A model generated the notes under the pieces. That model was not told where the DNA came from and searched no databases. It saw nothing but the letters and a program-made list of their open reading frames with translations. DNA of 64,000 bases from Natronococcus amylolyticus DSM 10524. Lineage in GTDB: Archaea > Halobacteriota > Halobacteria > Halobacteriales > Natrialbaceae. Both the position numbers and the translations under genes were made by a program. The DNA is taken from NCBI RefSeq assembly GCF_000337675.1, contig NZ_AOIB01000013.1, positions 317,697 to 381,696 of the forward strand, in the 5' to 3' direction. How positions within the stretch are numbered: the first letter of the stretch is position 1; every line of letters begins with the position of its first letter. Below, piece after piece: positions 47,814-51,761 of the stretch.

Positions 47814-48149
47814 TCAGTTTCCGCGGCCCGCGCCGTGAATCTGTTCTACCTCGGCCTCGATGTGGACCGAGTCCGGGAAGTCGTGTTCGGCGATGTTGCG
47901 CGCGAGGTCGTCGTGACCGTGGATCTCGAGTTCGCGCGTGAAGACGGTGTAGTTCCAGGAGTCGAACCGTCGGTCGTCGTCGCCGTGCAGGCGAGCGTGC
48001 TGGGGAACGGTCAGCTTCTCGGGCGGATGAGAGTGGGGTCCCTTCAGCGCGGCGCCCTTGCGCTCGGCGGTGGATTTGATGTCGTCGACGATGCCGTCGA
48101 GTGCGGCTCGATCGCCGCTCTGAAGCGTGAGCCGGGTGACGAAGGTCAT
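47814..48149 (-). CDS. uS10/mL48-family ribosomal-protein-like
   Basis: 111 aa from ATG 48149 (MTFVTRLTLQSGDRAALDGIVD). The strand-loop pattern KGPHSHPPEKLTVPQH matches the S10 family (KGPxPLPT, with the extended loop). The main haloarchaeal uS10 lies beside the EF-1A gene elsewhere, so this is a paralogue, weakly conserved outside the fold. Its role is unknown. Confidence 0.8.
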   Translation of the reverse strand: MTFVTRLTLQSGDRAALDGIVDDIKSTAERKGAALKGPHSHPPEKLTVPQHARLHGDDDRRFDSWNYTVFTRELEIHGHDDLARNIAEHDFPDSVHIEAEVEQIHGAGRGN

Positions 48150-48259
48150 GCTGGTACTGTACAACTGTGAACGGTCGGCGCGTAAAAACCTGCTGAGATG
48201 CGGTGCCGGCGGATACACAGTCCGATATTCTCTTAACGTCCCGCACGTTACTCGAGGTA

Positions 48260-48700
48260 ATGGCAGTCGAAGCTACGAGCGCAGGCGCGATCCTCTTCCG
48301 CGATACGCGGGGCCGGCGCGAGTATCTTCTACTCAAGAGCCGCCCGGGTGACTGGGAGTTTCCGAAGGGCGGTGTCGAGGGAGATGAAGAACTTCAGCAG
48401 ACGGCGATCCGCGAAATAAAGGAAGAGGCAGGTATCGATCAGTTCCGACTACTCGACGGCTTCCGCGAGGACTACGACTACGTCTTTGAGGCCAACGGCA
48501 AGACGATTCACAAGACCGTTCACCTCTTCGTCGCGAAGTCCTTCGAGGCGAGCGCGGAGCTCTCGAACGAACACCGCGACCTCCAGTGGCGCGACTACGA
48601 GCAGGCGGTCAACACCGTCACGCAGGACGGGCCGCGAGAAATCCTGGAGGAGGCCCACGTCTATCTCGACGAGATCTTAGAAGAGGACGACGAGGAGTAA
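48260..48700 (+). CDS. Bis(5'-nucleosyl)-tetraphosphatase (Ap4A hydrolase, Nudix)
   Basis: 146 aa from ATG 48260. A Nudix box is at about 37-59 (GGVEGDEELQQTAIREIKEE). SAGAILFRD at the start and WRDYEQAVNTVT near the end are typical of archaeal Ap4A hydrolases. It splits diadenosine tetraphosphate into ATP and AMP. The TATA-like TCTTAACG region is about 30 bases upstream. Confidence 0.86.
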   Translation: MAVEATSAGAILFRDTRGRREYLLLKSRPGDWEFPKGGVEGDEELQQTAIREIKEEAGIDQFRLLDGFREDYDYVFEANGKTIHKTVHLFVAKSFEASAELSNEHRDLQWRDYEQAVNTVTQDGPREILEEAHVYLDEILEEDDEE

Positions 48701-48832: not shown

Positions 48833-49891
48833 GTGACGCGAACGCGAGCGACCGACAGCGAGTTCGCCTTCGAGCTGCGGAGCTGTCGCTGGGCCGAGCG
48901 GGAGTGGCCGCCGGCCGAGACCCTCGCGGACGACCGCGCGGTCCTCGTCGCCCGCCAGCTCGGGACGAAGCGCCGACGCTGGGACACGATCGTCCTCGAG
49001 TGCGACCGCGACGCCCTCGAGGCCCGTGCGAACTTCGGCCCGAAGCGACTCGACGGCGACCTCCTGCACGTCGTCCGGAACGCGCCCGCCGACTGGGCCT
49101 ACTACCGCGACGCGCTCCCGGATCCGGGCTACCCCTGGCGGTACGTCCGCGAGGCGATCCACGAGGCCGACGACCGGGGGATCCTCGAGACCCGAAAGCG
49201 GGGGAACCGCATCGAGATCCGCCGGAAGTGGGCCTATCCGGCGTGGATCGACCGAATCGTCGCCATCGAGAACAAACCTGACCTCGACGCGAGCGCCGCC
49301 CGAACTCTCGCAACCCAGCTCGAGTACGACGTCGCGCTGGGGCTCGCCGACGAGGTCTGGGTCGCAACCCGGAAGACGGGCGAGCGCGTCGAGCCCGTGC
49401 TGTTCGAGGATCTCCCGGTCGAGGCGGGCGTGCTCGCGCTCGAGTCCGAGTCGCTGTCGACCGAGGTCGCGTGGTACCCCCGCTCGCTGTCGGTCGACGA
49501 GCCGGGAACCCGGATCCTCGAGCGACCCGACGGCGGCGAGCGGGACGGCTCGGCGGCCCGGTTCGAGTACGTCGACCCCGAACGGAAGGCCGAGAAGCGC
49601 CTCGCGATCGCGGAGCGGGCCTACGAGCGTGGCTGGCGCTCGTTCGTCGAGACGATGCGTCCCGACTGTCGGCACTTCGCGCTGCGCGGAACGGACGGCA
49701 CGCAGCTGCAACCTCACTGCGAGGCCAAGGGGCGCTGTCAGACGGCCGCGGAGTGTTCGGGCTCCTGTCCCGAGTTCGAACCGGAGCCCCCGGTCTGGCG
49801 AACGCGAGGGTGGCCGATCGAGGGCGGGCCGGGGACTCGGCTCTCGGCGCTGCTCGAGGGGCGGCGACGCCATCGACGGCCCGGATTGTGA
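48833..49891 (+). CDS. DUF5787 protein, possible Fe-S PD-(D/E)XK nuclease
   Basis: 352 aa, GTG start. RRWDTIVLECD (D51) and IVAIENKPDL (E146-x-K148) give the D...ExK order of PD-(D/E)XK nucleases, and TQLEYDVAL (Q162, Y165) follows as in RecB-type enzymes (there usually QxxxY). Between them is a winged-helix-like segment. C18 and C279, C296, C302, C308, C312 in the C-terminal 75 residues could hold an Fe-S cluster, as in Cas4 and AddB. The assignment is mine by inspection; the family is otherwise described only as DUF5787. Confidence 0.75.
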   Translation: MTRTRATDSEFAFELRSCRWAEREWPPAETLADDRAVLVARQLGTKRRRWDTIVLECDRDALEARANFGPKRLDGDLLHVVRNAPADWAYYRDALPDPGYPWRYVREAIHEADDRGILETRKRGNRIEIRRKWAYPAWIDRIVAIENKPDLDASAARTLATQLEYDVALGLADEVWVATRKTGERVEPVLFEDLPVEAGVLALESESLSTEVAWYPRSLSVDEPGTRILERPDGGERDGSAARFEYVDPERKAEKRLAIAERAYERGWRSFVETMRPDCRHFALRGTDGTQLQPHCEAKGRCQTAAECSGSCPEFEPEPPVWRTRGWPIEGGPGTRLSALLEGRRRHRRPGL

Positions 49892-49909: not shown

Positions 49910-50410
49910 TCAGTCGGTCGTCGTGACCTCGAGTTCGTCGCGCTCGACGGCCAGCCGGAACGTCGGGACGGTGCGGTACTCGATCTCGACGACGCCCTTC
50001 CGGCGCAGGCTCTGCAGACCCGAGCGGACGTCCTCGGAGTCGGGATCGACGTCGTAGGCGTCCCGGAGCTTGTGTAACACCGAGACGACGCTCTCCGATT
50101 CCTCGTCGGGGCCCGCGAGCACCCCGACGATTCGCGCCTGGAGTTCGGGAACCCGGATCTTGGAGGGGGTGCCGTCGTCGGGATCGCTCTCGACGCCCGG
50201 CTCGACGTCGACCAGGTCCGCGGCCTCCGCGGTCGCCCGGATCAGGCTGTTGTCATCGCGGAAGTAGTAGTCGCCGAGCTCGTTCTCGAGATACTGGTGG
50301 ACTTCGCTGCCGCTTTCTAACCCCCACCGATCCTGCAGCTCCGAGTTCTTCGTCGGCTGTAGTTCCACCACGTCGGCCAACCGTTCCGTGGCCTCGTCCG
50401 AGAGCGTCAT
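49910..50410 (-). CDS. DUF5797-family winged-helix protein
   Basis: 166 aa from ATG 50410 (MTLSDEATERLADVVELQPT). NSELQDRWGLESGSEVHQYLE is the likely DNA-binding helix-turn-helix, and VLHKLRDAYDVDPDSEDVRS a second helical unit. Conserved in haloarchaea; role unknown, probably transcription or DNA binding. Confidence 0.78.
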   Translation of the reverse strand: MTLSDEATERLADVVELQPTKNSELQDRWGLESGSEVHQYLENELGDYYFRDDNSLIRATAEAADLVDVEPGVESDPDDGTPSKIRVPELQARIVGVLAGPDEESESVVSVLHKLRDAYDVDPDSEDVRSGLQSLRRKGVVEIEYRTVPTFRLAVERDELEVTTTD

Positions 50411-50474
50411 CGCTCGGAGATACGCGGATCCGGTACTTTTGCGTTGTGTCCCGCCGCGGCGGGTCGCGATTCGA

Positions 50475-51761
50475 TCAGTCACCGAGTACCGGCACTGGAG
50501 CGGTCGTCTCGAGGGTTTCCTCGACCTGGGTGTAGACGAGGATCGCCCCCAGCGCGGCGAGCACGGTGCCGAAGGCGAAGGGAACCCAGAACCCGTAGCC
50601 GATGAGCGCGCCCGAGGAGAACGGGCCGATCGCGATCCCGAAGCCGAAGGCCATCGTCAGCACCGAGAGCTTCGACCCCGACTCGCCGTCGCCCGCGAGG
50701 TCGCCGGCCAGCGCCAGCGCGGGTGCGAACACCATCGCGCCGGCGATTCCCTGGACGAGACGGGCCAGGAACATGGTCTCGGAGGTCGTGACCAGCCCCT
50801 GGGCCATCGTCGCGGGGACGAGGACGATCATCCCGGCGAGGATGAACGGCCGCCGACCGTACTGGTCACAGGCCCGGCCGATCGGCGTCTGCAGAAGGAT
50901 CTGGGCGAGGATGAACGCCGCGAACTGGAGGCCGAACCAGGTCGATCCCTGGTCGAGGTGGTCGTTGACCTGTGGCTGGATCGTCGCGAACAGGGCGATC
51001 GCCGCCGCCATGAACAGGGAGACGACGCCCAGGGTGAAGATCGGATCGAGCAGGTTCTTTCCCGACGAATCGAAGACGTCGATCGAGAGATCCGCGCCCG
51101 CGGTCGCGCCCGTCGACTCGGGGTCCGTAATCAGGATCGTCACCAGCAGGTAGCTCAACGTGGCCGTGATCGCGGCGACGTAGAAGGCGGCGTCGAAGCC
51201 GCTGATCGCCAGCCCGCCGGGAAGCGGGTAGGGGCCGGCGCTGACGACCGCACCGGCGGCGACGGGGCCCGCGCCGAAGCCGACCAGCCGGAACGTGTTG
51301 TAGACGCCCATGTTCCCGCCCCGATCGCCTGTCGTCGCGAGTTCGTTGACCAGCGCGACCGACGCGGGGATGATGAAGGCGACGCTGATCCCCTGGAGGC
51401 CGCGGATCACGAGCAGGGAGACGTAGGTCTCGGCGAAGACGTACGCCAGGTTCGTCAGCGCGAGTCCGCCGAGGCCGACCAGGATGAACGTCTTTCGCCG
51501 CCTCGTTCGGTCCGAGAGGCGCCCGGTGAGTGGCTGGAAGGAGCTGTTGAGAAAGCCAAACAGCGACAGGATAACGCCGATGATCATCGCCTCGCTGAGG
51601 CCGAACGTCGGCCCGCCGACGACGTCGTCGGCGACGTACAGCGGGATCACGATGATCAGAAAGGAGTTACCGACCCCGTCCGCCATTCGGGCGAACGCCA
51701 GCGCGAGCACGCGCCTGTCGACGGCGAACTGCGCGAGAATCCAGTGAACGAGACGCCGCAT
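50475..51761 (-). CDS. Major facilitator superfamily transporter
   Basis: 428 aa with 12 predicted membrane helices. The loop between helices 2 and 3 is GRLSDRTRRRKT (the A-motif), repeated weakly at GRACDQYGRRPF in the second half. It is an exporter or permease of unknown substrate. The start MRRLVHWILAQFAVDRR fits. Confidence 0.84.
   Translation of the reverse strand: MRRLVHWILAQFAVDRRVLALAFARMADGVGNSFLIIVIPLYVADDVVGGPTFGLSEAMIIGVILSLFGFLNSSFQPLTGRLSDRTRRRKTFILVGLGGLALTNLAYVFAETYVSLLVIRGLQGISVAFIIPASVALVNELATTGDRGGNMGVYNTFRLVGFGAGPVAAGAVVSAGPYPLPGGLAISGFDAAFYVAAITATLSYLLVTILITDPESTGATAGADLSIDVFDSSGKNLLDPIFTLGVVSLFMAAAIALFATIQPQVNDHLDQGSTWFGLQFAAFILAQILLQTPIGRACDQYGRRPFILAGMIVLVPATMAQGLVTTSETMFLARLVQGIAGAMVFAPALALAGDLAGDGESGSKLSVLTMAFGFGIAIGPFSSGALIGYGFWVPFAFGTVLAALGAILVYTQVEETLETTAPVPVLGD

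Follow-up and report, generated by a model that had tools for sequence, protein, structure and literature searches.

The haloarchaeal DUF5787 family: a predicted pair of PD-(D/E)XK nucleases with an MmcB-like core

The 64,000-nucleotide stretch of Natronococcus amylolyticus DSM 10524 DNA analysed here (the window) carries a gene of the DUF5787 family. That its product is a PD-(D/E)XK nuclease carrying an inserted winged helix is supported by a fold model, by invariant active-site residues and by a collinear profile match to the MmcB family. Taken as a whole, the observations are probably best explained if the two DUF5787 paralogues found in nearly all haloarchaea, A (the window type) and B, are repair nucleases built on an MmcB core, B being docked on the clamp. 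An earlier note on this DNA had suggested that a DNA-repair or recombination nuclease may be hidden behind the DUF label; the predicted fold, the invariant residues and the MmcB match all support a hidden nuclease, probably one acting in DNA repair. DUF5787 was named in no paper found by our literature search. What is new is the combination of an MmcB-type core, an embedded winged helix, a Cys4 module and a sister paralogue that bears a PIP motif.

Predicted fold and active site

The gene (48833..49891, plus strand) starts with GTG and encodes a protein of 352 aa that matches PF19100 (DUF5787) at 2.1e-124; its nearest homologues are from Natronococcus. In the comparison of the ORF with its nearest homologue, substitutions at the first, second and third codon positions numbered 13, 7 and 36 (GC3 0.89). 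As the substitutions fall mostly at the third position, the reading frame is coding. An antisense ORF of equal length lies opposite this frame; such long antisense ORFs are usual in G+C-rich DNA. The ORF, its strand and its family are thus confirmed, and the residue numbers given in the earlier note are correct.

Conservation was assessed in 125 sequences, 95 of paralogue A and 30 of paralogue B. D51, E146, N147, Q162 and D166 are invariant in both paralogues, and K148 is kept in 124/125, a single B sequence carrying N instead. The reading of D51, E146 and K148 as active-site residues in PD-(D/E)XK order therefore stands, since all three are kept across the family (125/125, 125/125 and 124/125) and the AlphaFold2 model places them in the right order. 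D51 (48983..48985, plus strand), a predicted metal ligand, opens strand beta-2; the E146-N147-K148 motif (49268..49276, plus strand) closes strand beta-3; and Q162-x3-D166 (49316..49330, plus strand) lies on the helix that follows. The proposed Q162/Y165 pair held for its first member only: position 165 is a tyrosine in 52% of A sequences and rarely in B, and the invariant partner of Q162 is D166, four residues further on, so that a QxxxY motif is absent from DUF5787. Helix alpha-1 (residues 10-24; 48860..48904, plus strand) displays E10, E14, C18 and E22 on one face; its three glutamates are invariant and C18 is near-invariant.

Modelling of A with AlphaFold2 on the family alignment gave a mean pLDDT of 89.7 and a pTM of 0.88. 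The model comprises a helix (10-24), two strands (35-44 and 49-58, the second with D51), a winged helix (59-131), a strand (139-147) with E146 on it and K148 just after, a helix (153-169) with Q162, and a strand (174-180). Modelled on a B-only alignment, paralogue B showed the same order of elements (pLDDT 83, pTM 0.72). Both models thus present the alpha-beta-beta-beta-alpha-beta order of the PD-(D/E)XK core. The winged helix lies between core strands 2 and 3 (49007..49225, plus strand) and consists of helices 59-68, 75-83 and 102-114 and strands 118-123 and 126-131. The earlier note had seen a winged-helix-like insertion between D51 and E146, which is borne out by AlphaFold2 and by Foldseek, where the insertion resembles ArsR-type winged helices with a probability of up to 0.98. 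When the models were compared with the PDB, Foldseek returned no match at E<=1e-3 for A or B; the restriction enzyme PaqCI matched A weakly (probability 0.51), and the top meaningful matches were winged helices, probably because the insertion of ~70 residues splits the core, so that local alignment favours the winged helix. A PDB search by sequence likewise gave no meaningful match. In the mechanism that we propose, D51, E146 and K148, with Q162 and possibly a glutamate of helix alpha-1, would bind the metal needed for catalysis and activate a water molecule; this centre would cut DNA with Mg or Mn, and the embedded winged helix would bind the DNA.

The MmcB relationship and the four-cysteine site

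MmcB (PF06319), known from Caulobacter and phages, is a repair endonuclease under SOS control. For the comparison, MmcB sequences were gathered from phages and plasmids; cellular relatives were found with an approximate MmcB-like bait sequence, and the analysis used the retrieved real sequences only. Aligned with DUF5787 by hhalign, the MmcB profile reached a probability of 51% (range 45-51%) at an E-value of 1.5e-4. With the insertion removed, it scored 33.2, a value reached by 0/100 block-shuffled profiles (mean 13.5, maximum 19.8), and unrelated neighbour families used as controls scored at most 21.4. The alignment is collinear over the shared PD-(D/E)XK core: the R-x-D motif of MmcB (R-A-D-L) falls on R-W-D51, its E-x-K motif (E-I-K) on E146-N-K148, and its CDR-FFAT ... 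P..xG pattern on ADEVWVAT ... LPVEAG, with CDRLFFAT on ADEVWVAT and FPEECGLM on LPVEAGVL. Most of the score comes from residues 173-268. This region includes P195-V-E-A-G199 (49415..49429, plus strand), a loop-strand signature that hhalign places on FPEECG of MmcB; P195 and G199 are invariant, and so is G108 in MmcB. Among viral models, Foldseek ranked an MmcB-like DNA repair protein first (E 1.5e-3, probability 1.00) and another protein of the MmcB family third.

On this moderate profile match the DUF5787 core is best described as MmcB-like, with PF06319 as the nearest known family among those compared by sequence. We do not file DUF5787 under PF06319, because hmmscan did not match the nuclease core to this model at E<=10 and because the invariant D73 and D77 of MmcB, which follow its E-x-K motif, have no clear counterpart in the alignment. 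The two families also differ in architecture: MmcB proteins are of about 150-200 aa and have neither the winged-helix insertion nor the Cys4 module nor a PIP box.

The four cysteines of the Cys4 module, C279-x16-C296-x11-C308-x3-C312 (49667..49768, plus strand), are invariant in 125/125 sequences. The earlier note had counted six cysteines as a set. Its four module cysteines are confirmed, but C302, inside the module, varies (a cysteine in 47% of A sequences, Val in B), and C18 (codon 48884-48886, plus strand) is dispensable, as the 3/125 sequences without it still carry C279, C296, C308 and C312. In similarity searches the module region gave two weak matches: a recurrent one of 19 bits to the Zn-knuckle of archaeal MetRS, with all four cysteines aligned, and one to the small family DUF7140. 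The resemblance to the zinc knuckle leans towards zinc, which appears at least as likely a ligand here as an Fe-S cluster, and the site would be structural or serve as a grip on DNA. That the C-terminal site carries an Fe-S cluster in a protein otherwise MmcB-like, and not Cas4-like, is a serious possibility, if not the one that we would expect. Fe-S clusters are common among nucleases of the PD-(D/E)XK superfamily, and in DUF5787 four cysteines but not a single histidine are invariant, both of which speak for a cluster; against it, a Cys4 site by default more often holds zinc, and the MetRS knuckle and DUF7140 are the only similarities to be found.

Two paralogues and a proposed role in repair

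DUF5787 was found in 387/391 Halobacteria genomes, almost always in two copies, and is thus a core gene pair that has so far been listed only as a DUF. The four genomes that lack it are small and come from two families; their lack of the gene was upheld by a search with a profile built for this analysis. No real homologue was found elsewhere in the phylum sample, nor in viral contigs or phage records, and among plasmids the family was present on one large plasmid only. Weak PF19100 matches in methanogens proved to be methionyl-tRNA synthetases aligned at their Zn-knuckle, and were judged not to be homologues: the resemblance would be due to chance or to a metal-knuckle pattern common to both. 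Paralogues A and B are 27-39% identical. Each is monophyletic (support 100/100) and each largely recovers the sampled families, which makes the duplication older than those families; a single duplication before the sampled haloarchaeal families split would have given rise to two chromosomal paralogues that were then kept almost everywhere.

The paralogues differ at their C-termini. The motif QxxLxx[FWY] lies at most 9 residues from the C-terminus in 30/30 B proteins, drawn from seven families; the usual ending is Q[SA]GLDRF plus one residue, and the B protein of the same genome (L076:1396-2379, minus strand) ends in QAGLERFR, which is PIP-box-like. A C-terminal PIP motif (QxxhxxA) was found in 0/95 A proteins and in 0/545 neighbour genes, and among 5395 ORFs of at least 150 aa the strict motif occurred in the last 17 residues of 38, the B proteins counted in. 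Fen1 is a known client of PCNA, and 25/25 Fen1 proteins of these archaea, used as a control, end in QTGLDRWT or a sequence close to it. As the motif is present in all 30 B proteins and is Fen1-like, paralogue B is predicted to dock on PCNA through it. PCNA would thus bring B to the DNA, on which B would act while docked. A carries a basic tail of its own, WRxRGWPIEGGPG...RRRRRRPGL (49796..49885, plus strand), which is kept in A only and holds no PIP box.

In repair linked to replication, the pair would most likely serve to cut DNA that is damaged or branched. MmcB has been described as a PD-(D/E)XK endonuclease that protects from mitomycin C and cisplatin (PMC9578287), and Haloferax volcanii NreA confers mitomycin C resistance through PCNA (PMC7776575); the roles of these two proteins make the processing of crosslinks or stalled forks the first candidate. 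We tentatively put forward DUF5787 as an unrecognised, nearly universal haloarchaeal repair pair, with a PCNA-guided B and a Nudix-linked A that each combine the MmcB core with a winged helix and a Cys4 site, in a pathway such as crosslink or stalled-fork processing. To our knowledge, H. volcanii is without HerA-NurA and such a pathway has no assigned enzyme in haloarchaea. Haloarchaea withstand heavy DNA damage and provide genetic models of archaeal repair. Placement with MmcB, together with the Fen1-like PCNA tag of one paralogue, makes two proteins so far listed as hypothetical testable candidates for replication-coupled repair, and it connects repair in archaea with a bacterial nuclease that confers resistance to crosslinks.

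Two other readings of the function were weighed. DUF5787 might be a DNA-binding protein or regulator that has retained the PD-(D/E)XK fold and lost the ability to cut, as might be suggested by the embedded winged helix, which is like that of ArsR-type regulators, and by the B sequence with N in place of K148. We think this unlikely: degenerate nuclease copies usually lose their active-site residues first, but here D51 and E146 are invariant, and K148 nearly so, over two ancient paralogues. A nuclease that processes RNA or tRNA, and has no part in DNA repair, appears a little less likely still. B lies near aIF2-gamma, PIN-domain and RNA polymerase genes, and the weak resemblance to MetRS could be read in the same sense; however, these informational genes form a general syntenic block, the PIP box of B points at PCNA, and MmcB works in DNA repair (PMC9578287). 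A DNA-cutting repair nuclease remains the preferred reading.

Other nuclease families and the neighbourhood of paralogue A

The earlier note had also likened the cysteines to the split Fe-S cluster of Cas4 and AddB, in which an N-terminal cysteine supplies one of the four ligands (PMC3466216). The order of elements is indeed shared (a cysteine in the first helix, D, E-x-K, Q and then C-terminal cysteines), but the spacing in DUF5787 is Cx16Cx11Cx3C and not the Cx2Cx5C of the Cas4 sequences compared. Because of this spacing, and because the N-terminal cysteine, a ligand position in Cas4 and AddB, is dispensable in DUF5787, the split-cluster idea is unsupported. Kinship with Cas4, AddB and RecB also failed in profile comparisons controlled with shuffles and unrelated families: the Cas4 profile scored 12.8 against DUF5787, a value reached by 35/100 shuffles, and the PDDEXK_1/AddB-like profile 11.3, whereas Cas4 against PDDEXK_1 gave 99.3%. 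With scores at the level of shuffles, a different cysteine spacing, D in place of the tyrosine of QxxxY and three sequences that lose C18 yet keep the other four cysteines, there is little chance that DUF5787 is a nuclease of the Cas4/AddB/RecB family with a split [4Fe-4S] 'iron staple'.

Two further PD-(D/E)XK nucleases were considered as nearest relatives and rejected. Hjc (PF01870), an archaeal nuclease of this class present in 39/39 haloarchaeal genomes searched, showed no similarity (profile score 14.7), and NucS/EndoMS (PF01939) scored 14.9, under the shuffle mean. PDDEXK_7 was unmatched in 80 genomes and also in controls, and so says nothing either way. NucS of other archaea binds PCNA through a C-terminal PIP motif (PMC4929162), which it has in common with paralogue B; however, its partner domain is not as in DUF5787, and the 25 listed NucS/EndoMS proteins of haloarchaea all lack a C-terminal PIP box. 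One group of haloarchaeal NucS proteins ends in AKLTDF, without the glutamine.

Directly upstream of the A gene in the window lies a gene for a Nudix hydrolase (48260..48700, plus strand; PF00293, 7.3e-19). A Nudix gene is found upstream on the same strand at 60/68 A loci and, outside the family of the window, at 20/24, the gap being 11-22 nt in six of them. With gaps this short, co-transcription of the Nudix gene and A is likely in these six loci. A would act with its own basic tail and may perhaps be tied to the cleaning of the nucleotide pool by the Nudix enzyme. A DUF5797 gene (49910..50482, minus strand; PF19110, 3.1e-83) is convergent with A, an arrangement seen at 60/68 A loci, and a uS10-like gene (47814-48218, minus strand; PF00338, 1.7e-14, under the uS10 equivalog cut-off) is present at 49/68; its product is apparently a paralogue of ribosomal S10. 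The linkage of Nudix genes to A and to phage mmcB is no more than suggestive, as part of A's wider neighbourhood is conserved as well. The phage arrangement, with mmcB beside a Nudix gene, occurs in some large phages: fHe-Yen9-02, JA11 and Afa-NA1 carry a cluster of Nudix hydrolase, mmcB and dTMP kinase genes that echoes the Nudix-DUF5787 pair.
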